Of a stretch of DNA of 64,000 nucleotides, positions 4,450 to 53,868 are shown in pieces; the stretch's first letter is position 1, and every line of letters starts with the position of its first letter. A program made the position numbers and the translations under genes. The DNA is from Candidatus Binatia bacterium (GTDB lineage: Bacteria; Desulfobacterota; Binatia; HRBIN30; BPIQ01), in the NCBI GenBank assembly GCA_026004195.1, contig BPIQ01000002.1:248001-312000 (forward strand), in the 5' to 3' direction. The notes beneath the pieces are model-generated. The model searched no databases and was not told the origin of the DNA. It saw only the letters and a program-made list of their open reading frames with translations.

Positions 4450-6003
4450 CTACGCCTGCGAACGGCGCCAGTAGACGGCCAGGCCCGCGAGCAGAAGCGC
4501 TTCGGGGAAAAGCAGTACGGAGAGGTAGAACACCATCGTGCTCTGTTCGGGCGTGAGCTGTACGCGGGAGGCCCGAAGGCTTTTCGGCCGGATCGAAATC
4601 AGGTCCGACTCGCCCGCCAGCCAGCCGACCGAATTGAGCAGGAGGTCCCGGTTGTAGAAGTTGCCGAGAACGTTGCGGTTGTTCGCGAAGTCTCCGCTGC
4701 CGAAGACGACGAGCCGCGCACGCCCTTCGCCCCCGTTGAGCTCCTCGAGGTCCGCCTCCACAGCCACCCCGATCGAGACCGGCCCCTTGCGGTCCGAAGC
4801 GTCCAGCCGTGCCACCCTTTCCTCGAAGAGGGCCCTCAGGTCGGTCTCCGCCCAACTGCTCGACCCCGTCTTGACGATCTCGGTCGCCTCGAGGCCTTTC
4901 TTTCCCGCGGCGTCCGCGGACACCGATCGGGTCATGGGAAAAATCGTGAGCTCGCGAAAGTTCTTCGTGATCTCGTGCGCCCCGTAGGTCTGGACCAGCG
5001 GCTCGAGCCCCAGGGTCGGACCCTGGAAGAGGCGGAGGACCTGGTCCACGACGACGTCCTCGTGGAGTTGCACTCCCCAGCGGGCCAGAAGGGGCCGGAA
5101 CTCCTCGCCCCGTCGCGGGGGGATCAGAGCCAGGAGATTTCCCCCTTTGGCGAGGTACCGCTCGATGGCGTCGAGCTCGGAGCCCAGGTAGGGCTTTTCC
5201 GGGGCCGCGACGACCAGGACGTCGCAATCCTCCGGAACCTCCGGCTCCGTCATCAGGAGCACCGTCCGCACCTGGTAGTGTTCCGTCTCGAGGGCTTCTT
5301 TCCACTGGCCGTAGCCCCGAGGACTTTCGACGTCCTCGACGTCGGGCTCTCCGTGCCCCTGCGCGAAACACACGGTCTTTTTCTTGCCCCTGGTCACCTT
5401 GATGATGGCGTTCGTCAGGTTCTCCTCCGTGGGCTCCGTCACCACGGTCCCCTCGTCCCCGTACTCGACGTGGACGGAGTTGTAGGAGCGGATCTTGTAC
5501 TTTTCCGCCTCCACGGGATCCCGTTCGGGGTCGATCATCCGATAGGAGACCTTGTCCGACGCGTAGGTGTAGCTGCGCAGGAGGTCCTCGAGCTGGGGGT
5601 GCACGCCCCCCTCCACGAAGGCCCGGAACACGAGGGGCTTTTCCAGGGCTTTCACGACCCGCTCGGACTGAGGGGAGAGGCTGTAGACCTTCTGCTCGGT
5701 CAGGTCGAAACGGAGGTGGTGGCGTGCCGAGAGATAGTTCAGGACGGCGAGGACGGCGAGGAAGGCGGCGGAGTAGAGGATCACGTTGGCCCCGTATTTC
5801 GTCGAACGCTGGCCCACGAACTGGCCGAGGCTCTCGAGCCCCGAGCTCAGGAACGCGACCAGCGCGAGGACGCCGAATCCCGCGTGAACCCCGATGTAGA
5901 CGACGTCGATCGGGCTCCGGCCCCGGGTGAAGAGATACGCCGCTCCCGCGAAAAAGAGGAGAAGCAGACCTACGAGCCCGAGAAGCGAGTTCGCCCGCCG
6001 CAC
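4450..6003 (-). CDS. GldG-like ABC transporter auxiliary protein
   Basis: At 517 residues, this belongs to the GldG / ABC-type auxiliary family. It has three hydrophobic segments near the N terminus (about 5-30, 36-58, 74-96), a large extracytoplasmic region starting around LRFDLTEQKVYSLSPQS, and a C-terminal membrane helix (about 485-510). The phrase DLTEQKVYSLSP is typical of the family, whose middle domain resembles DUF7088 and the ABC-transport auxiliary fold. It sits between the permease and DUF4340 genes with 3- and 6-base gaps. The substrate of such systems outside gliding bacteria is not known, and nothing here proves motility. Confidence 0.88.
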   Translation of the reverse strand: MRRANSLLGLVGLLLLFFAGAAYLFTRGRSPIDVVYIGVHAGFGVLALVAFLSSGLESLGQFVGQRSTKYGANVILYSAAFLAVLAVLNYLSARHHLRFDLTEQKVYSLSPQSERVVKALEKPLVFRAFVEGGVHPQLEDLLRSYTYASDKVSYRMIDPERDPVEAEKYKIRSYNSVHVEYGDEGTVVTEPTEENLTNAIIKVTRGKKKTVCFAQGHGEPDVEDVESPRGYGQWKEALETEHYQVRTVLLMTEPEVPEDCDVLVVAAPEKPYLGSELDAIERYLAKGGNLLALIPPRRGEEFRPLLARWGVQLHEDVVVDQVLRLFQGPTLGLEPLVQTYGAHEITKNFRELTIFPMTRSVSADAAGKKGLEATEIVKTGSSSWAETDLRALFEERVARLDASDRKGPVSIGVAVEADLEELNGGEGRARLVVFGSGDFANNRNVLGNFYNRDLLLNSVGWLAGESDLISIRPKSLRASRVQLTPEQSTMVFYLSVLLFPEALLLAGLAVYWRRSQA

Positions 6004-6006
6004 GCC

Positions 6007-6780
6007 TCACCTCCAGCGGATCGACTCCACCGACCGTTGGGTGAGAAAAAGAGCGGCCGCGATGACCGTGACGAAGTAGGCGAGGTCCCGGGTGTCGATC
6101 ACCCCTTTCACCATTTCCCCGAAATGCTCGGTCAGCGAGAGGTACCGGAGCAGCGCCCCGATCGTGCCCCCCGCCGTGTCCGCGGGCCAGGAAATCACGT
6201 AGAGCAGGAGAAGCGCGACCAGGCAGCTCACGGCCGCGACGATCTGGTTGTCCGTGAACGAGGACGTGAGAAGCCCGACGGTCACGAACGCGGTCGCGAG
6301 CAGAAGGAGGCCGAGGTAGCCCGCGAGCATCACGCCGACCTCGGGATTCCCGTAGAGGGCCAGGAGCAGAGGGTAGATGCCCGTGAGGCCGATCATCAAG
6401 AACACGAACACGAACGCACCGAGAAACTTGCCGAGTACGATTTCCGTCACGGACAGAGGCGAGGTCATCAGCAGCTCGTAGGTGCCCGACCGCTTTTCCT
6501 CGGCGAAGCTCCGCATCGTGATCATGGGCACGATGATCACGAGGACCACGGAGAGGTTGTGGAGCAAGGGGGCCACGACGAACTCGTTCAGGTTGAGCCG
6601 CGCCTGCGCCATCGGGTTCCGCATGGCCTCGTAGATGGAAAGGAGGAACTGGAACCGGGCCAGGAGGTTGAAGAAAAACCAACCGCCCAGCAGGAGAAAC
6701 CCGGTCAGCACCACGTACGCAATCGGAGACACGAAGTAGGAGCGGAGCTCCTTGCCCGTGATCGCGAACACGTTGCGCAT
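6007..6780 (-). CDS. ABC-2 type permease (GldF-like)
   Basis: This is the membrane subunit of an ABC-2 family transporter: 257 residues with about six transmembrane helices (for example PIAYVVLTGFLLLGGWFFF and VVSC-rich helices after residue 190). The cytoplasmic loop MRSFAEEKRSGTYELLMTSP is the family hallmark that contacts the ATPase. The gene follows the ATPase after seven bases and precedes the GldG-like gene by three, giving the usual ATPase-permease-GldG-DUF4340 order. It should pair with the ATPase at 6788-7516. Confidence 0.92.
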   Translation of the reverse strand: MRNVFAITGKELRSYFVSPIAYVVLTGFLLLGGWFFFNLLARFQFLLSIYEAMRNPMAQARLNLNEFVVAPLLHNLSVVLVIIVPMITMRSFAEEKRSGTYELLMTSPLSVTEIVLGKFLGAFVFVFLMIGLTGIYPLLLALYGNPEVGVMLAGYLGLLLLATAFVTVGLLTSSFTDNQIVAAVSCLVALLLLYVISWPADTAGGTIGALLRYLSLTEHFGEMVKGVIDTRDLAYFVTVIAAALFLTQRSVESIRWR

Positions 6781-46279: not shown

Positions 46280-46540
46280 ATGAGAAAAGCGACTCGAGGA
46301 GCCATCGTAGCCCTGGCCGTCGCGGGCCTTTTTGCGGCGAACTCGGCTTTCGCCGGAGAGGAAGCCGGCAAAGGCGAGGAAGCCCAGGTGAAGTGCATGG
46401 GAATCAATTCCTGCAAGGGCCAGGGCGAGTGCGCGACGGCGCAGCACGACTGTGCCGGCAAGAACGCGTGCAAGGGAAAAGGCTGGATCAAGACCTCGAA
46501 GGCCGAGTGCGAGAAAAAGGGCGGCACCGTCGTCCAGTAA
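46280..46540 (+). CDS. bufA: Bufferin-type RiPP precursor (DUF2282, BufA2-like)
   Basis: Bufferins are secreted copper-binding peptides whose cysteines are modified by a DUF692 iron oxidase. The 86-residue precursor has a signal peptide (IVALAVAGLFAANSAFA, cleavage near residue 25) and a Cys-rich core with six Cys at 39, 45, 51, 58, 64 and 77. The motifs INSCKGQGEC, KNACKGKGW and SKAECEKKGG are typical of the BufA2/DUF2282 group. It is followed by bufB and bufC. Metal stress control is likely by analogy, but no regulator gene is present. Confidence 0.88.
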   Translation: MRKATRGAIVALAVAGLFAANSAFAGEEAGKGEEAQVKCMGINSCKGQGECATAQHDCAGKNACKGKGWIKTSKAECEKKGGTVVQ

Positions 46541-46605
46541 GCTCGGCGCCGCCGGGCAGAAGCCTCGGCACGGCGAGGCCACGAAACCCGCGGAGGTAGA
46601 GCCAC

Positions 46606-47481
46606 GTGGAGCGACCTTGTCTGGGCACGGGGATAGGCCTGCGCGTACCGCATTACGGGCAGGTTCTGGAGGAGTGGCCGGCGGTCGACTGGTTCGAGAT
46701 CGTCACGGAAAACTTTCTCGTGCCCGGCGGCCGGCCACTCCACGTCCTCGAGCGCGTTCGTGAACACTACCCGGTCGTCTTCCACGGCGTTTCGCTCTCG
46801 ATCGGCTCGGCCGACCCGCTGGACTTCGGCTATCTCGCGGCGCTCCGCGAGCTCGTCCGCCGGTTCGAGCCCGAGTGGGTGTCGGACCACCTCTGCTGGA
46901 CTTCTTTCGGCGGGCACAGCCTCCACGACCTGCTTCCGCTTCCTTTCACCGAGGAGGCGCTCGACCATGTGGTCGAAAGGGTCGGTATCGTGCAGGACTA
47001 CCTGGGCCGCCGGATCCTGCTCGAGAACGTGTCGAGCTACCTCCGCTTCCGGCACTCCGCGCTCCCCGAGTGGGAATTTCTCGCGGAAGTCGCGCGCCGG
47101 GCCGACTGCCTCGTCCTTCTCGACGTGAACAACGTGTACGTCAGTGCCCGCAACCACGGCTTCGACCCCGAGACCTACCTCCTCGCCATCCCGCCCGAAC
47201 GCGTCTGGCAGTTTCACCTGGCCGGGCACTCGGACAAGGGGACCCACCTGCTCGACACCCACGACCACCCCGTGGCCGACCCCGTGTGGGAACTCTACGC
47301 CCGGGCCGTCCGGCTCTTCGGCCGGGTTTCCACGCTTCTCGAGCGAGACGACCGAATCCCCGAACTTTCCGAGCTTCTCGACGAGGCCCGCCGTGCCGAG
47401 CTCATCCAGGATGCGGAACTCGAACGCTCCCGATCTCGCGACGACGCAGCGAATCCTCTCGTTCTTGATTCGCGCGCCTGA
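46606..47481 (+). CDS. bufB: MNIO (DUF692) multinuclear iron oxidase BufB
   Basis: This TIM-barrel oxidase of 291 residues uses two or three iron ions to oxidise Cys of the bufferin precursor. Candidate ligands are spread along the barrel as in the family: WFEIVTENF, VVFHGVSLSIG, VSDHLCWTSFGG, ILLENVSSYL, LLDVNNVYVSARNHG, WQFHLAGHSDKG and LLDTHDHPV. The GTG start follows GGAGG by nine bases. Its 3' end overlaps bufC by 71 bases, so translation is coupled. Confidence 0.92.
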   Translation: MERPCLGTGIGLRVPHYGQVLEEWPAVDWFEIVTENFLVPGGRPLHVLERVREHYPVVFHGVSLSIGSADPLDFGYLAALRELVRRFEPEWVSDHLCWTSFGGHSLHDLLPLPFTEEALDHVVERVGIVQDYLGRRILLENVSSYLRFRHSALPEWEFLAEVARRADCLVLLDVNNVYVSARNHGFDPETYLLAIPPERVWQFHLAGHSDKGTHLLDTHDHPVADPVWELYARAVRLFGRVSTLLERDDRIPELSELLDEARRAELIQDAELERSRSRDDAANPLVLDSRA

Positions 47482-48277
47482 GGGAGCGGCCCGGGGTCTC
47501 GAGACCCTCGAGCGCGAAGATCCCGCGGCGGCGCGGATCGCCCGCGAGCTCGTCGTCGGCGACGAGCGCCTTGCGGCCCTCGAGCGCGTCGAGATCTACG
47601 CGAACATGTACTTCTACCGGCTGCTCGAGTGCCTCGAAGAAGACCATCCGGCTCTGCGCGCATTCCTCGGGTACGAGGACTTCCACGACCTGGTCGTCGA
47701 CTATCTCGTCGCCCACCCTCCCTCGCACTACTCTCTCCGGCACGCGGGAGACGCCCTACCCGAGTTTCTGGCGCATCACCCTCTGGGCCGGGAGTGGCCC
47801 TTCCTCCCGGAACTCGCAAAGCTCGAGAGGTCGATCCTGGACGCTTTCGACGCACCGGACGCGCCGCGCCTTTCCGTCGATGCCCTGCGAAGCTTCGACC
47901 CCGAGGAGTGGAGCACGTTGAGGCTCCGCCCGGCGCCCGCCGCCCGGGTGCTCGACTTCGGGTGGGACGTCCACGACCTCTGGAAACGCACCCGGGAGGA
48001 GGAGAACTCGGGGGGCGGCCGGAACCTTGCCCCGCCCGTGCGAACCCCCACGTCCGTCCTCGTCTGGCGAGAGAACTGGACCGTTTACCACCGCCGCGTG
48101 GACCCGGCCGAACGGGTCGCGCTCGGAGCGCTCTTCGCGGGCGAAAGCCTCGAGTCCCTCTGCGAAAAGGTGACCGAGACCGTGGGCGAGCAGGAAGCTC
48201 CCGAGCGGGTCTTTTCGCTGCTGCGGAGGTGGGTCGAGCAGGAAGTCGTCTCCGGCGTCGAGCCGAGCGCGGGTTGA
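47411..48277 (+). CDS. bufC: DUF2063 putative DNA-binding-like partner BufC
   Basis: BufC-type proteins bind the precursor and present it to the DUF692 oxidase. The 288 residues start with the DUF2063 N-terminal domain (TTQRILSFLIRAPEGAARGL, ALERVEIYANMYFYRLLECL, ALRAFLGYEDFHDLVVDYLV), with the usual HPPSHYSLRHAGDALPEFL motif. A C-terminal winged-helix-like part follows. I chose the ATG inside the bufB end as it fits the family start. No BufD (DoxX) gene follows. Confidence 0.88.
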   Translation: MRNSNAPDLATTQRILSFLIRAPEGAARGLETLEREDPAAARIARELVVGDERLAALERVEIYANMYFYRLLECLEEDHPALRAFLGYEDFHDLVVDYLVAHPPSHYSLRHAGDALPEFLAHHPLGREWPFLPELAKLERSILDAFDAPDAPRLSVDALRSFDPEEWSTLRLRPAPAARVLDFGWDVHDLWKRTREEENSGGGRNLAPPVRTPTSVLVWRENWTVYHRRVDPAERVALGALFAGESLESLCEKVTETVGEQEAPERVFSLLRRWVEQEVVSGVEPSAG

Positions 48278-48324: not shown

Positions 48325-49536
48325 ATGACCCGGCTCCGGGACTTTTGCACGCGCCTTTTTTTCCGCCATTTCTTCCGCCTTCTTCTCTTCGCCGTGTCTC
48401 TCGCCGAGTGGGTCTGCCTGGCCGCCGCGCTCGAGCACGCCGGGGTCCGCCTCGCCGCTCTCCACCATGCCGTCGGTGCGCTCGCTCTCTACGGCACGAA
48501 CCGCCTCCTCGTCCGCTTGCGAGAAGAAACCCTCCCCCTCCTCGGCAGGGCTTCTCTCCGGGTTTACTCCGCTTTCGCGTTCACCTGTCTTTTCGGAGCC
48601 CTCTTTCTCGTGGCGCACGACGCCTTCTGGTGGGTTCTGGCCTCGGGGGCCCACGCCGCCCCGACGCCCTGGCTCGAGACGGCGCCGGACGTCTCGCGCT
48701 TCTACGGACTCGGGGCCATTTTCGTTCTTTTCCTCTACGGATACACCGTCGGCCAGAGACGCCTCACGGTCACCCGGCTCGAGCTACCCTTGCGCGGGGC
48801 ACCGGAGGCCCTCCGCGGCCTTCGCATCGTCCACGTCTCCGACATCCACCTCGGACGTTACATGTCGCCGGCGGCCTTCGCGCGCTACGCGAGGAAAATC
48901 CAGGCACTCGACCCCGACCTTCTCTTTCTCACCGGCGACATCCTGGACTCGCTCGATGCGATTCCGGGCGGCTTCCCCGTGCTCGCGCGTCTCCGCGGAC
49001 GGTACGGCACGTTCGCCGTGCTGGGGAACCACGATTTCTACGCCGGTCCGGACGAGGTGGCGCGCGCTCTCGAGAGGCACACGTCGTTCGTACCGCTCCG
49101 GAACGAGAGGCGGACCCTCCTGGTACGGGGTGTGCCGGTCCACGTCCTGGGCCTCGACGACCTGGGGCGCGACTGGTGCCGGGGCGTTTCCTTCCACCCG
49201 GCTCTGGCTCGCCTCCTCGAAGACCTCCCCGAAGAGGGCGTGTCGATCCTTCTGTCGCACCGGCCCGACGTTTTCCCGCAAGCCGCGGAAGCCGGCGTGA
49301 GCCTCGTTCTTTCCGGGCACACGCACGGCGGTCAACTCTCCCTCCCCTTCTGGCCGCGACCCCTGAGCCTCGCCCGCGCCGTGACCCGCTACGACCGCGA
49401 CCTTTTCCGGAACGGCGAGAGCTGGCTCTACGTGACGCGCGGGGTCGGATGCACGGGACAGCGCATCCGCCTTTTCACCCCCCGCGACATCGGCGTCATC
49501 GAGATCCTGCCCGACCCTTCCCTCCGAGACGCGTGA
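48325..49536 (+). CDS. Membrane-anchored metallophosphoesterase
   Basis: The 403-residue protein has four N-terminal membrane segments in about the first 150 residues and then a calcineurin-like phosphoesterase domain. Metal ligands are VHVSDIHLG (DxH), LFLTGDILDS (GD), VLGNHDFYAG (GNHD), LLSHRPDVF and LSGHTHGGQLS. It resembles the YaeI/YkoQ type, some of which act on UDP-diacylglucosamine or phospholipids. Substrate unproven. It is probably independent of bufABC: there is a 47-base gap. It overlaps the convergent epimerase gene by 41 bases. Confidence 0.9.
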   Translation: MTRLRDFCTRLFFRHFFRLLLFAVSLAEWVCLAAALEHAGVRLAALHHAVGALALYGTNRLLVRLREETLPLLGRASLRVYSAFAFTCLFGALFLVAHDAFWWVLASGAHAAPTPWLETAPDVSRFYGLGAIFVLFLYGYTVGQRRLTVTRLELPLRGAPEALRGLRIVHVSDIHLGRYMSPAAFARYARKIQALDPDLLFLTGDILDSLDAIPGGFPVLARLRGRYGTFAVLGNHDFYAGPDEVARALERHTSFVPLRNERRTLLVRGVPVHVLGLDDLGRDWCRGVSFHPALARLLEDLPEEGVSILLSHRPDVFPQAAEAGVSLVLSGHTHGGQLSLPFWPRPLSLARAVTRYDRDLFRNGESWLYVTRGVGCTGQRIRLFTPRDIGVIEILPDPSLRDA

Positions 49537-49924
49537 CGAGCTCGATCAGCGCCCCGGAGGAGGCTTCGGGTGCGAGAAAAGAAACGCGCATCTCGTCGCC
49601 CTCGCGCGGTACGCGGTCGATGAGGGGAACACCGGCCTCATCGAGCTCCTCCACGCAGGCATCGACGTCCTCGACGCGAAGCCCGAAGTGGTAGACGCCG
49701 GGACCTCGGTAGGGCAGGTACTTCTGCGTCGTCTCTTCCCAGTCCCGGGCTTCGAGGAGTTCGAGCTCGATCTCGCCCACGCTCACGCGGCAGAGCCTGA
49801 GACCGTACTCCGGGCGGTCTTCGATCGGTCCGGCCGGAAGCCCGAGCCGCTCGACGTAGAACCGTCTCGCCTTCTCGATGTCCTCGACGGCAATCCCGAT
49901 GTGGTCCACGCCCAGGATCTTCAT
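49496..49924 (-). CDS. mce: Methylmalonyl-CoA epimerase-like VOC protein
   Basis: This vicinal-oxygen-chelate enzyme has 142 residues. Metal ligands fit methylmalonyl-CoA epimerase: His in VDHIGIAVEDIEKARRFY, Glu in IELELLEARD, His in GVYHFGLRVEDVD and Glu in SGALIELVT, with the phrase AGVPLIDRVPREGD. Its ATG overlaps the stop of the UGSC-partner gene (ATGA), so it belongs to that operon. The link to a selenoprotein is unusual, and a different CoA-ester or aldehyde substrate is possible. No methylmalonyl-CoA mutase is nearby. Confidence 0.85.
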   Translation of the reverse strand: MKILGVDHIGIAVEDIEKARRFYVERLGLPAGPIEDRPEYGLRLCRVSVGEIELELLEARDWEETTQKYLPYRGPGVYHFGLRVEDVDACVEELDEAGVPLIDRVPREGDEMRVSFLAPEASSGALIELVTRLGGKGRAGSR

Positions 49925-51015
49925 GCTGCGCTCCCTTCCCGCCGCGGGAGCTCGCAGGCTTCGGCTCCCGAGACGACCTTGCGCGAGACCGACCAGGTGA
50001 GGCCGAACGTACAGAAGTTGATGGCGTGGTGCCCGCCCTCGCCGCCCGCCACCGCGAGCAGGAACTGCTCCGGGCTCGCGCAGAGGGGGACCCTTCCGTC
50101 CTCCACGTAGCCGCGCTCCTCGAACTTCTTCCAGTAGCCCCGGGGCCAGCGGTCGACGGGCGTCTTCGTGTGCTCGTGGAGAAATCGCTGCGCCTCTTCG
50201 ACTCCGAACCCGTCGCGCGCGATCTTGTGGGCGAAATCCGGGCAGAGAAGAAGCAGGATTTCCCCTTCTCTCTGCGGCACCAGGACCTTGTTGTTGCCCA
50301 CCCAGTCGATGGAGTGGGCGAGAACGAGGAGCAACTCCTCGCCGCTTTCCGCGAAGACGTCCGCGATGTCCTGCGTCCCCGTGGCGCAGTGGAGCGTCAC
50401 GACGCTGTCCTCCGGACGGAAGCCCCGCCTCACGTGGAAGGGTGCCCACGGGCTTTTCTCTTCCCATTCGCCGAAGCACAGCGAAATCCTTCCGGGCTGC
50501 CCGAACGTGGATTTGCTCACCGCTCCCGGCACGGCCCCGCCCACGTTCCGGAGCACGAGCCGCAAAGCCCGTCCGATCGTCGCGTTCGCGCGACCGGCCG
50601 TCCCGAGGCAACTGTAGCCGCACTCCACGCCGATTTCCCTCCGGACGGGCCCGTTCACGAGCACGGCCGGCGTGGCCGAGCACGTCGTCGTGGCGAGCGC
50701 GTAGAGGTTGAAGCGCGGGTCGCAGGCTGCCTCGACGGCGGCCACGACGACGGGAAAGTACTCCGGCAGGCAGCCGGCCATGACGGCGTTGACGGCGATC
50801 TTCTCGAGCGTCGCCACCCCGCGGCGCGGCTCGACGATGCCCACGACGGTATCCGGCGTTCCCGGCACGTACTCGAGCATCGCCTGCACGCGCTCCGCGG
50901 TGGGCGGAACGAGCGGTAGGCCGTCGCCCCAACCCCGGGCTTCGGCGAACGCGAGGAACTCTTCCGGATCGTCCGGGACCTCGTGGAGAGGCGACTCGAG
51001 CACCCCGCGCGTCAC
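49921..51015 (-). CDS. UGSC-selenoprotein partner, Cys-rich protein of unknown function
   Basis: The 364-residue protein begins with an acidic segment and the phrase GWGDGLPLVPPTAERV, continues with VATLEKIAVNAVMAGCLPEY and the run FPVVVAAVEAACDPRFNLYA, and later has the Cys-rich stretch GVECGYSCLGTAGRANATIG. These blocks recur in a family I have seen next to UGSC proteins, but its reaction is unknown. No transmembrane or signal region is seen. The GTG start has AGGAGG overlapping the selenoprotein's stop. The end overlaps the epimerase ATG. Several Cys residues could form redox pairs or an Fe-S site. Confidence 0.8.
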   Translation of the reverse strand: MTRGVLESPLHEVPDDPEEFLAFAEARGWGDGLPLVPPTAERVQAMLEYVPGTPDTVVGIVEPRRGVATLEKIAVNAVMAGCLPEYFPVVVAAVEAACDPRFNLYALATTTCSATPAVLVNGPVRREIGVECGYSCLGTAGRANATIGRALRLVLRNVGGAVPGAVSKSTFGQPGRISLCFGEWEEKSPWAPFHVRRGFRPEDSVVTLHCATGTQDIADVFAESGEELLLVLAHSIDWVGNNKVLVPQREGEILLLLCPDFAHKIARDGFGVEEAQRFLHEHTKTPVDRWPRGYWKKFEERGYVEDGRVPLCASPEQFLLAVAGGEGGHHAINFCTFGLTWSVSRKVVSGAEACELPRREGSAA

Positions 51016-51025
51016 GCCGCTCCTC

Positions 51026-51574
51026 CTAGAAGTCCACCGACAGCAGTCGCTCGATTTCCGCGAGCGACCCGACTGCGATGCGCTCGATCTCCTCGGTGGG
51101 CCTGGGCTCGAAGGGATGGGGAAGGACGAGCATGCGCAGGCAGGGGAAACCGCGAGCCTCCGCCGCGAGCTTCGCGAGGTTGGCGAACGCCTCCGTGACG
51201 ACGACGACCGCGGGGACGCCCGCCGCCTCGCACTCGATCGTGTCGTGGACACTCCACGACGTGCACGACCCTCACGTGCCGAGGCCGACGACGGCCGCGT
51301 CGACCGCGCGCACGAACCCCGCGACTTTCCTGCGTTCTTCTTCCGTCGTGCCGACCCGGATCCCGGGGTCGAAAACACGGATGTCCCGGACGTTCCACCG
51401 GCGCGGGGCTTCGCGGCGGAGAACTTCCGAGAAGATCTGGAAGGACCGCCACGTCGCGTCTCGCCGGATCCCGAGGACCTTTCCCCCGAGCTTCCCCACA
51501 CCGGGGGCGAGTCGTTTCGCGGGTGGTGCCGGCGGACTCGTGGGATCGAGCACCCTCACGGTTCGCGTCGCCAT
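51026..51574 (-). CDS. UGSC-family selenoprotein (in-frame TGA read as Sec)
   Basis: The 182-residue reading runs from ATG 51572-51574 through an in-frame TGA at 51272-51274 to TAG at 51026-51028. The TGA sits in AAVVGLGT-U-GSCTSWSVHD, giving U101-G-S-C104, the defining motif of the UGSC (seleno)protein family. The downstream part (VPAVVVVTEAFANLAKLAAE, LVLPHPFEPRPTEEIERIA) continues the same conserved alpha/beta fold, so the TGA is not a real end. A hairpin with the spacing of a bacterial SECIS follows. The U-x-x-C spacing suggests a thiol/selenol redox centre. Function unknown; the partner gene follows at once. Confidence 0.9.
51242..51274 (-). promoter_or_regulatory. Bacterial SECIS-like element with Sec TGA codon
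   Basis: Reading the minus strand, TGA (51272-51274) is followed after 11 bases by a perfect 7-bp stem, GTCGTGG (51254-51260) with CCACGAC (51242-51248), around an AGTGT loop (51249-51253). The apical loop with GU begins 18 bases after the TGA, inside the known range for bacterial SECIS elements. Confidence 0.8.
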
Positions 51575-51640
51575 GGCGCCGAGCATAGCGCATCTGGGAG
51601 CGAGAAAGGAAGCCGCTTCTCGTTTCGCCGGAGCCGTGCT

Positions 51641-52696
51641 ATGGCCTTCCGCCGTATGCGTGCCCTGGTTTTCCACGCCCCGCACGACGTGAGGGTGGAG
51701 ACGGTGAAGGATCCCGAACTCCGCGATCCGAACGGCGCCATCGTTCGGATCACGCGGTCTTCGATCTGCGGTTCGGACCTCCACCTCTACCACGGGAGCG
51801 TCCCGGCCATGCCCGGGACCGTCATGGGGCACGAAGGCGTGGGCGTCGTCGAGGACGTGGGAAAAGACGTCCGCAGGTTCCGCAAGGGCCAGCGGGTGCT
51901 CGTCCCGGCCGTGCTCGGATGCGGCGAGTGCGAACCCTGCCGCCGGCACTACCCCGTGGGGTGTCTCGTCCTGCCCGTGAAGATTCCGGGAATTTCGCTC
52001 GAGCTCGGGGGCGCGCAAGCCGAAGCCATGTACGTGCCCGCGGCGGACGCCAATCTCCGGGAAATTCCGCCGGAGCTCGGCGACGAGCAGGTGCTTTTTC
52101 TTACCGACATCCTGCCCACGGGCTACACGGCCGCCCGCAACGCCGGCATCGCGCCGGGCGATACCGTCGTCGTCCTCGGTTCGGGCCCCGTGGGTCTCTG
52201 CGCCATCGAGGCCGCGGGCCTTTTCGGCGCCGCTCGGATTTTCGCCGTGGACCTCGTCCCCGAACGCCTCGAGAAAGCCCGCGAGTTCGGGGCCGAGCCG
52301 ATCGACGCCCGCGTGCAGGATCCCCGAACGGCCGTCCTCGAGGCGACCGAGGGCCGCGGCGCCGACGCCGTGATCGAAGCCGTGGGCAGCCGAGATACCT
52401 TCCGCCTCGCCATCGAGCTTGCGCGTGTCGGTGGTGTCGTGTCGGCGGTCGGTGTCCTTTTCGAGGAGGCGTTTCCTTTCCCCATGGGAACGGCGCTTCT
52501 CAAGGACCTGACTTTCCGGGTGGGGCTCGTCGACATCCCCTCGTCTCTGCCCCGGCTCTTCCCCCTCGTGCGCTCCCGCCGGCTCGACCCCACCCGGCTT
52601 CTCACCCACCGAATGTCGCTCGACGAAGCGCCCGAAGCCTACCGGCTTTTCGCCGAGCGCCGCGACGGCTGCCTGAAAATCGTTCTGCAGGGCTAG
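51641..52696 (+). CDS. Zinc-dependent alcohol dehydrogenase (MDR family)
   Basis: This medium-chain dehydrogenase has 351 residues. The catalytic zinc site is SSICGSDLHLYHG and GHEGVGVVEDVG. The structural zinc loop is partial: GCGECEPCRRHYPVGC has four Cys, but in the shortened spacing of the formaldehyde/threonine-dehydrogenase-like subgroup. The Rossmann motif is VVVLGSGPVGLCAIEAA. Substrate not determined. The ATG at 51641 has GGAG seven bases upstream. It is divergent from the UGSC operon with a 66-base gap; the two may share regulation. Confidence 0.92.
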   Translation: MAFRRMRALVFHAPHDVRVETVKDPELRDPNGAIVRITRSSICGSDLHLYHGSVPAMPGTVMGHEGVGVVEDVGKDVRRFRKGQRVLVPAVLGCGECEPCRRHYPVGCLVLPVKIPGISLELGGAQAEAMYVPAADANLREIPPELGDEQVLFLTDILPTGYTAARNAGIAPGDTVVVLGSGPVGLCAIEAAGLFGAARIFAVDLVPERLEKAREFGAEPIDARVQDPRTAVLEATEGRGADAVIEAVGSRDTFRLAIELARVGGVVSAVGVLFEEAFPFPMGTALLKDLTFRVGLVDIPSSLPRLFPLVRSRRLDPTRLLTHRMSLDEAPEAYRLFAERRDGCLKIVLQG

Positions 52697-53016: not shown

Positions 53017-53868
53017 TTATGACGGCGTTCCTGGACGCCGGGGGCCCGGACCCCGGCGCACCCCGTTTCCGCCCGAGCTTGCACCGCCGGAGTGCGGTTC
53101 CTTCCGTCTCCGCCTCCCGTCGTGCCAGGCACGGCGGTAACCGGCGCGGATGGCCTCTTCCTCGCTCCGGAACTCGACACGGTTCCGCGGCGCGATCTTT
53201 TGTGCGTAGGGACTCCGCGGGTCGTGGTAGACACGCGAGCGCCTGTTGCCGACGACGGGGCCCCGGATCGGCCCCGGACCGTTCGCCCAGATGCCGAGCC
53301 CGCGCCGCCGAGCCTCGAGCTCGGCCAGCCGGAATTCGCGAGCTTTCGCGAACGGGAACCGGTCGTAGACCCGCGCGTAGCCCCGCACGAGGAGCTCCCG
53401 GTTGAACAGCGTGCCGTCCTCGAGCCGGACGTAGGCGAGAAGACGCCCGTACTTGTCGATGCGCTGAGCGGGGTCGAGCTCGAGCCTTACTTTGCGGCCG
53501 AGCAGCCGCCTGCGAGCGAAGGTCCGAGCTTCCTCGGCGAAAAATTCCGCGGGCCTTCCCTCTCGTCCGAGCTCGGGAGTGTCGATGCCGACGAGCCTTA
53601 CCTTGTGCGTGTCTCGCTGCGTACGGACGAGAATGGTGTCGCCGTCGTACACCTCGACGACACGCCCTTCGAGTACCTCCGCGGCATTCGCCCCGAGCAG
53701 CAGGGGAGAGGCCGGAGCGACGAGCGCACACAGGAAGACCACGAGCGAAACCACGGCCCGCTGTCTTTCCTGCTTCCGCGCCAGAGAAGTTTTTCCGTTT
53801 CTCGACGCGCCGGTCCTTTCCGGAGGTTCTGCCACCTCGGCTTTTACCACGTCCCTCCGTGACCCCAT
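53017..53868 (-). CDS. Secreted thermonuclease-family protein with degenerate Ada-like tail
   Basis: This 283-residue staphylococcal-nuclease-fold protein has an N-terminal hydrophobic export segment (about residues 41-62, [20 protein letters not shown]). The SNase motifs are [20 protein letters not shown] (Asp ligands), [11 protein letters not shown] (catalytic Arg region) and [17 protein letters not shown]-terminal module, [20 protein letters not shown] to [13 protein letters not shown], matches the Ada-like zinc-binding tail of some secreted nucleases. Its Cys positions are replaced (RSPY, GYRRA). The start is uncertain: an internal GTG just before the hydrophobic part is possible. Confidence 0.85.

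Follow-up and report, generated by a model that had tools for sequence, protein, structure and literature searches.

A UGSC-family gene with an in-frame TGA predicted to encode selenocysteine, its linked partner gene and a probable distant kinship with the GrdB/PrdB selenocysteine domain

The 64,000-nt stretch of DNA analysed here (the window) carries a gene of the UGSC family whose in-frame TGA almost certainly encodes selenocysteine (Sec), as judged from sequence evidence. The best explanation of the data as a whole is that the Sec-containing UGSC protein, a probable distant relative of GrdB and PrdB, very probably works with the product of a linked partner gene, the two forming a proposed two-part oxidoreductase. 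The gene is a new member, with a subfamily of its own (GLGT-UGSCTSWSVHD), of an uncharacterised selenoprotein family that has been in print since at least 2008, and it passes all of the sequence tests run for a selenoprotein with the exception of raw folding energy. The initial annotation, which had described an in-frame TGA selenoprotein at this locus, missed both the linked partner gene and the GrdB/PrdB kinship. The features are collected in Table 1.

Table 1. Coordinates of the UGSC locus and adjoining genes in the window
Feature	Position	Strand	Evidence
UGSC-family selenoprotein gene, 182 aa if TGA is read as Sec	51026..51574	minus	ATG at 51574, TAG at 51028-51026; translation and PF24696
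In-frame TGA, predicted Sec, residue 101, U of UGSC	51272..51274 (TGA 51274-51272)	minus	TGA/Cys pattern in homologues
Predicted SECIS hairpin, 7-bp stem GTCGTGG/CCACGAC, loop AGTGT	51242..51260	minus	starts 11 nt past TGA; perfect pairing
Partner gene, GTG start, 364 aa, no Pfam or NCBIfam model	49921..51015	minus	conserved linkage
Glyoxalase/VOC-superfamily protein	49496..49924	minus	PF13669 E 3.4e-20
Zinc-type alcohol dehydrogenase, divergent neighbour, not shown to belong	51641..52696	plus	PF08240 E 1.3e-24, PF00107 E 1.8e-24

Translated through the TGA, the window protein matched the Pfam UGSC family (PF24696, E 2.5e-35, 122.6 bits, gathering cut-off 25) over nearly the full length of the model (residues 8-179 on model positions 2-171 of 172), and the alignment spans the TGA. 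This bears out the family named in the initial annotation. The gene lies on the minus strand, a detail that the initial annotation did not give. The [UC]GSC motif is present at its conserved place within ...AAVVGLGT-U-GSCTSWSVHDT..., and 81 sense codons follow the TGA (codon 101) in the same frame. The narrower NCBIfam equivalog NF041046 aligned with the C-terminal half of the protein only, and at its cut-off would not name the protein because the score of 85.6 bits falls below 125; by these sequence matches the window protein is a UGSC member according to Pfam that lies outside the NCBIfam equivalog. The plus-strand reading of 51026-51574 gave nothing meaningful, and the sole Rfam match on 51000-51600, a sub-threshold RNase P (E 1.1), was taken as chance.

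Homologues were collected by profile search of loci from whole genomes of the same phylum, which yielded 133 matches, 99 of them distinct and 98 once contained copies were removed, with contig-end fragments mostly outside this final set. UGSC also matched ten plasmid records; the eight examined come from haloarchaea, Paracoccus, Acidovorax, Variovorax and Embleya. A contig scan gave one relative (L022), apparently the same contig as that of the phylum locus L107, with the same protein, and one scan of IMG/VR gave no relative.

GrdB and PrdB are the selenoprotein B of glycine, sarcosine, betaine and D-proline reductase. Profile comparison by hhalign aligned UGSC with GrdB (96.1%, E 3.5e-9) and with PrdB-like proteins (E 5.8e-7) over about 70 columns, and E was still 1.5e-5 when the CGSCT/CGTCT motifs were cut from both; as controls, the best of 60 column shuffles reached 0.014 and the reversed profile 0.016. 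The aligned UGSC-GrdB stretch takes in U-G-[ST]-C-T, a G-[IV]-P that precedes a strand and a P-H-P that comes once the following strand has ended; PrdB-like proteins share less of this pattern. When 40 UGSC members were compared with NCBIfam at E <=1, 19 matched GrdB (TIGR01917, best 9.6e-5) and 8 matched PrdB (best 9.3e-5). The window protein alone reached E 0.02 and 13.8 bits with TIGR01917, short of the cut-off of 602.2, and had no row for PF07355 at E <=1. The comparison of UGSC with GrdE stayed at shuffle level (E 0.012), and PF09338, the GrdE/PrdA pyruvoyl-type subunit, had no match in the window's own genome. These profile alignments make it highly likely that the C-terminal half of UGSC is distant kin of the Sec domain of GrdB and PrdB (PF07355, TIGR01917, TIGR04483). 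Unlike those proteins, UGSC has no N-terminal GrdB part, no PF07355 match and no GrdE-type partner. In literature that covers both UGSC and PrdB, the passages on UGSC do not state such a kinship.

A different fold was suggested in 2008, when the passages on UGSC in a metagenome study proposed a thioredoxin-like one (PMC2398784). UGSC would then be a thiol oxidoreductase of the thioredoxin or glutaredoxin kind and the partner its client or electron donor, a reading with which the UxxC motif agrees. However, hhalign of UGSC against 12 thioredoxin-family domains gave E 0.043, no better than the shuffles, compared with 3.5e-9 for GrdB. An AlphaFold model of UGSC made from two sequences, of low confidence (mean pLDDT 51, pTM 0.52), shows five alternations of strand and helix and has Sec following strand 3; Foldseek with this model returned nothing under E 0.001 and no row titled thioredoxin among its best 50. 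A thioredoxin fold is thus disfavoured by the profile comparison, with some structural room left for it, and we consider an enzyme of the thioredoxin kind improbable. Sequence searches of the PDB with the UGSC, partner, GrdB and PrdB-like profiles found no credible relative; the best row, a de novo designed protein met with the PrdB-like profile (E 0.0012), was rejected.

The kinship of UGSC with GrdB and PrdB is accompanied by a nearly one-to-one association with the partner. When 395 genomes were searched for each family, UGSC was found in 37 and the partner in 37, with 36 genomes common to both, and the two unshared genomes (G358 and G169) are weak matches. At 93 of the 98 UGSC copies the partner is adjacent or fused, in either order, no more than 1.5 kb away on the UGSC strand, and it stands beside UGSC in all eight plasmid records examined. 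UGSC and partner form a single reading frame in 34 of the 98 copies, with no TGA in it besides the Sec codon. Two of the five copies without a partner come from loci of only 3.5 kb; the window's nearest relative (L107) has no partner within its 16.5-kb locus. In the window the partner's GTG begins 10 bases past the UGSC stop codon, which shares bases with the partner's AGGAGG at 51027-51022. The ATG of the glyoxalase/VOC gene in turn overlaps the partner's TGA stop (ATGA), which makes it the third gene of a probable operon.

Fusion of UGSC to a conserved domain, 'Unknown_1', was described from Global Ocean Sampling metagenomes in 2008 (PMC2398784, passages on UGSC). The fused copies counted here are of that form, whereas the window differs in having two separate, coupled genes. 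The partner family is very probably this 'Unknown_1' domain. Added here are the nearly one-to-one linkage, the arrangement as coupled but unfused genes and the haloarchaeal pairs with Cys, none of which was met in that paper's passages on UGSC. In all likelihood UGSC and its partner work jointly. A TTTC in the window copy had prompted a pyruvoyl role for the partner, which was dropped because only the Thr is conserved and the partner family has no conserved Thr-Cys site; the partner profile showed no resemblance to GrdE (E 0.18) or GrdB (E 0.27). An AlphaFold model of the partner alone was set aside (mean pLDDT 31).

The genomic setting was surveyed with 30 proteins picked by hand near UGSC, two of them from the window, mostly from at least 52 close neighbours and a few from further off; the survey is a description and not an enrichment test, and gene picking missed real genes in GC-rich loci. 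Among the neighbours listed, those of other subfamilies include TctA, TctB, TctC, DctQ, solute-binding proteins, MmgE/PrpD, amidohydrolases and an amidase, and at L120 and L143, again of other subfamilies, a pyridine-nucleotide-disulphide oxidoreductase of about 309 aa lies near UGSC. The plasmid neighbourhoods, for which six of the eight fetched records have a gene table, hold TRAP-TAXI subunits, a CoA transferase, DUF6282 and isocitrate lyase/PEP mutase family proteins. Parts of tripartite tricarboxylate and TRAP-type transporters together with catabolic neighbours suggest catabolism of imported organic acids. The argument is weak, since the catabolic neighbours belong to other subfamilies and in the window's own no conserved functional neighbourhood was seen beyond the partner. 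A reductive or redox role in organic-acid catabolism is therefore put forward tentatively, as one plausible assignment.

In the mechanism that we propose, SelB and tRNA-Sec would decode the UGA as Sec on account of the hairpin just downstream, and UGSC would be translated together with the partner, both acting as one two-part oxidoreductase. By analogy with the Grd and Prd systems, we infer that Sec101 and Cys104 would be a redox pair. The Sec selenolate would attack the substrate, an Se-S bond would then form with Cys104 as the resolving residue, and a thioredoxin-type system would reset that bond. The likely setting would be the breakdown of imported small organic acids or amides, a presumed substrate class. 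A broader proposal, which we think rather doubtful, is that UGSC and its partner might constitute a new class of Sec-dependent reductive enzyme, an offshoot of selenoprotein B in which the pyruvoyl subunit was swapped for an unrelated one and which would serve organic-acid breakdown in diverse bacteria and, in its Cys form, in haloarchaea.

The Sec/Cys pair might instead be a ligand for a metal or organometal, a role put forward for some other uncharacterised selenoproteins, and not a catalytic redox centre. UGSC is an uncharacterised family, and metal binding is named as an option for SaoB, SaoC and UXX-star proteins (PMC13188914). Yet no metal transporter or resistance family was found in the 30 scanned proteins or in the six annotated plasmid neighbourhoods, bar one gene of L197 named zinc ABC transporter substrate-binding protein, and a metal-binding function is in our judgement unlikely. 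For work on UGSC proteins, the partner family tells what to co-express with them, and the probable GrdB/PrdB kinship points to a first chemistry besides the thioredoxin-like one. UGSC proteins have been counted among the most frequent selenoproteins of aquatic metagenomes (PMC2398784, passages on UGSC).

The assignment of Sec to the TGA is addressed first by the homologues. At the site of the window TGA, 88 of the 98 distinct homologues have TGA, two have Cys (L112 and L114) and eight have neither, and the frame runs on past the site in every one of the 98. The plasmid records that were examined have Cys in six and TGA in two (L196 and L197), so that Cys homologues of the kind the initial annotation had proposed to look for occur both in the phylum and on plasmids. 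Averaged over 36 pairs of nine genes, pN/pS was 0.54 for the codons before the TGA and 0.52 for those after it; purifying selection is equal on either side, and the 81 downstream codons, which had been described as conserved, are indeed under selection. The window's subfamily is a clade of ten (support 100/99, bootstrap not fully settled) that includes one Cys form, L114, on a long branch.

The eight copies with neither Sec nor Cys are paralogues that retain the UGSC domain (L122:7092-7598, L139:6864-7352, L139:8742-9230, L140:337-825, L140:3382-3870, L141:1162-1650, L137:4079-4576 and L135:8209-8709). Each of them has a partner at most 1.5 kb away, and the paralogues of L122 and L137 adjoin copies with Sec. 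The eight may have decayed, or may be subunits without a catalytic role.

The GT-U-GSCTSW context and the distance of 11 bases from the TGA to a perfect 7-bp stem, both given in the initial annotation, proved exact. By itself the hairpin is weak evidence, because a perfect stem of at least 7 bp at a SECIS-like place accompanies 8 of the 802 TGA codons of the window, and 2 of the 142 that have at least 60 open codons on either side. The other one of these two, at window position 53020 on the plus strand, combines a perfect 8-bp stem with long open frames to either side and lies antisense to an apparent nuclease gene. It seems to be a chance resemblance and shows that a hairpin with an open frame is insufficient as proof. 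The 23-nt hairpin piece folds at -12.6 kcal/mol, with 2 of 200 shuffles equally good. The folding energy of 55 nt is not outstanding, as 6 of 28 control windows taken from this gene do equally well and the mean z over the 88 homologues is -0.68.

Since the 55-nt folding energy was unremarkable, covariation was used instead, on 87 of the 88 TGA homologues, aligned without gaps. The 7-bp stem was formed in 84.2% of alignment cells, compared with 69.5% when partners were shuffled and at most 45.7% when the stem was slid. Cells altered on both sides of the stem numbered 81, where shuffling gave an expectation of 30.8 and 0 of 500 shuffles reached the observed number. Stem pairs with any two-sided change, 6 of 7, did not exceed the shuffles, 175 of 500 of which did as well. 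The cleanest SECIS signal is that the synonymous choice for Val suits the pair that closes the stem. With Val as the second residue after it, Trp TGG goes with GTC in 25 of 29 cases, and Cys TGC goes with GTG in 17 of 17, whereas GTG and GTC occur 472 and 472 times elsewhere in the same genes (Fisher p 3e-9).

Within the nine-member window subfamily, the stretch from codon +3 to codon +10 covers the hairpin and one codon ahead of it. Of the conserved residues in this stretch, Trp and Met left aside, 7 of 7 have a single codon in all nine genes, compared with 6 of 30 elsewhere in these genes. The loop Ser is AGT in 9 of 9 genes, compared with 2 of 69 other Ser codons. The Cys homologues L112 and L114 lack the hairpin, L114 reading TGG AGC GTG, and their corresponding stretches fold no better than 45 and 138 of 200 shuffles. 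Its conservation, seen in covariation and in subfamily codon identity, and its absence from the Cys homologues thus raise the hairpin above chance as a predicted SECIS element; in several distant subfamilies it is weaker or displaced.

The genome of the window was predicted in the initial annotation to hold selA, selB, selC and selD, and all four were found, each over its family cut-off. The selC gene scores 71.2 bits (cut-off 47) and is called tRNA-SeC with anticodon TCA by ARAGORN, selD itself carries an in-frame TGA, and selA adjoins selB. The two outcomes that the initial annotation had set against Sec, a genome without sel genes and homologues that all stop at this site, are both absent, the second as judged from the 98 homologues examined. 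Across 58 genomes, selA was over its cut-off in 34 of the 37 with TGA-UGSC, in neither of the two with Cys only (G056 and G434) and in 7 of the 19 without UGSC.

The three TGA-UGSC genomes without selA over the cut-off (G174, G402 and G429) count against the Sec reading. In G402 one contig end holds a stretch of selB that scores over the cut-off, while G174 and G429 (loci L106, L116 and L130-L134) have no selB over the cut-off either, though their completeness is rated at 100% and 99%. Eleven of the twelve UGSC matches in G174 have TGA, and several TGA-UGSC genes of G174 and G429 have intact hairpins. Our guess is that an assembly gap explains the missing selA and selB, and one gap could remove both, since they are neighbours in the window's own genome.

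Were the TGA a true stop, the product would be a protein of 100 residues, and the downstream frame a decayed remnant or the result of a nonsense mutation. A plain list of open reading frames does end the gene at the TGA, and the family tolerates some decay, as Sec and Cys have both been lost in 8 of the 98 copies. With the TGA in register and the frame continuing in 88 of the 98 homologues, equal pN/pS on either side, hairpin covariation and sel genes in the genome, however, a true stop becomes extremely improbable. Recoding of TGA as Trp or another residue, genome-wide or local, has the open frame as its sole support and is scarcely credible, since homologues without TGA have Cys (two in the phylum, six in plasmid records) or have lost the motif and never have Trp, a tRNA-Sec with anticodon TCA is present, the hairpin is conserved, and the partner gene ends on TGA, so that TGA still terminates genes here.

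Beyond the UGSC locus, the window's own genome also has a gene for a PrdB-like protein (L192, G000:C2:615200-616400, minus strand). An in-frame TGA falls in its VPV-U-PFCNQ, so the protein is probably another selenoprotein. Selenoproteins of this sort can be truncated in public annotation: on the Acidovorax sp. T1 plasmid p2-T1 (L197:5740-7293), UGSC is annotated as a short hypothetical protein at 5740-6030, whereas the UGSC match with its in-frame TGA spans 5758-6249, so the annotated gene ends inside the protein; the partner downstream has no gene in the PLSDB table, which is incomplete. Elsewhere in the window, positions 46280-48277 on the plus strand encode a small protein (46280-46540) that is rich in Cys and has a signal-like start, followed by further open reading frames, presumably for a DUF692 (MbnB/TglH-like) protein and its usual companion, and possibly constitute a metal-binding RiPP cluster.
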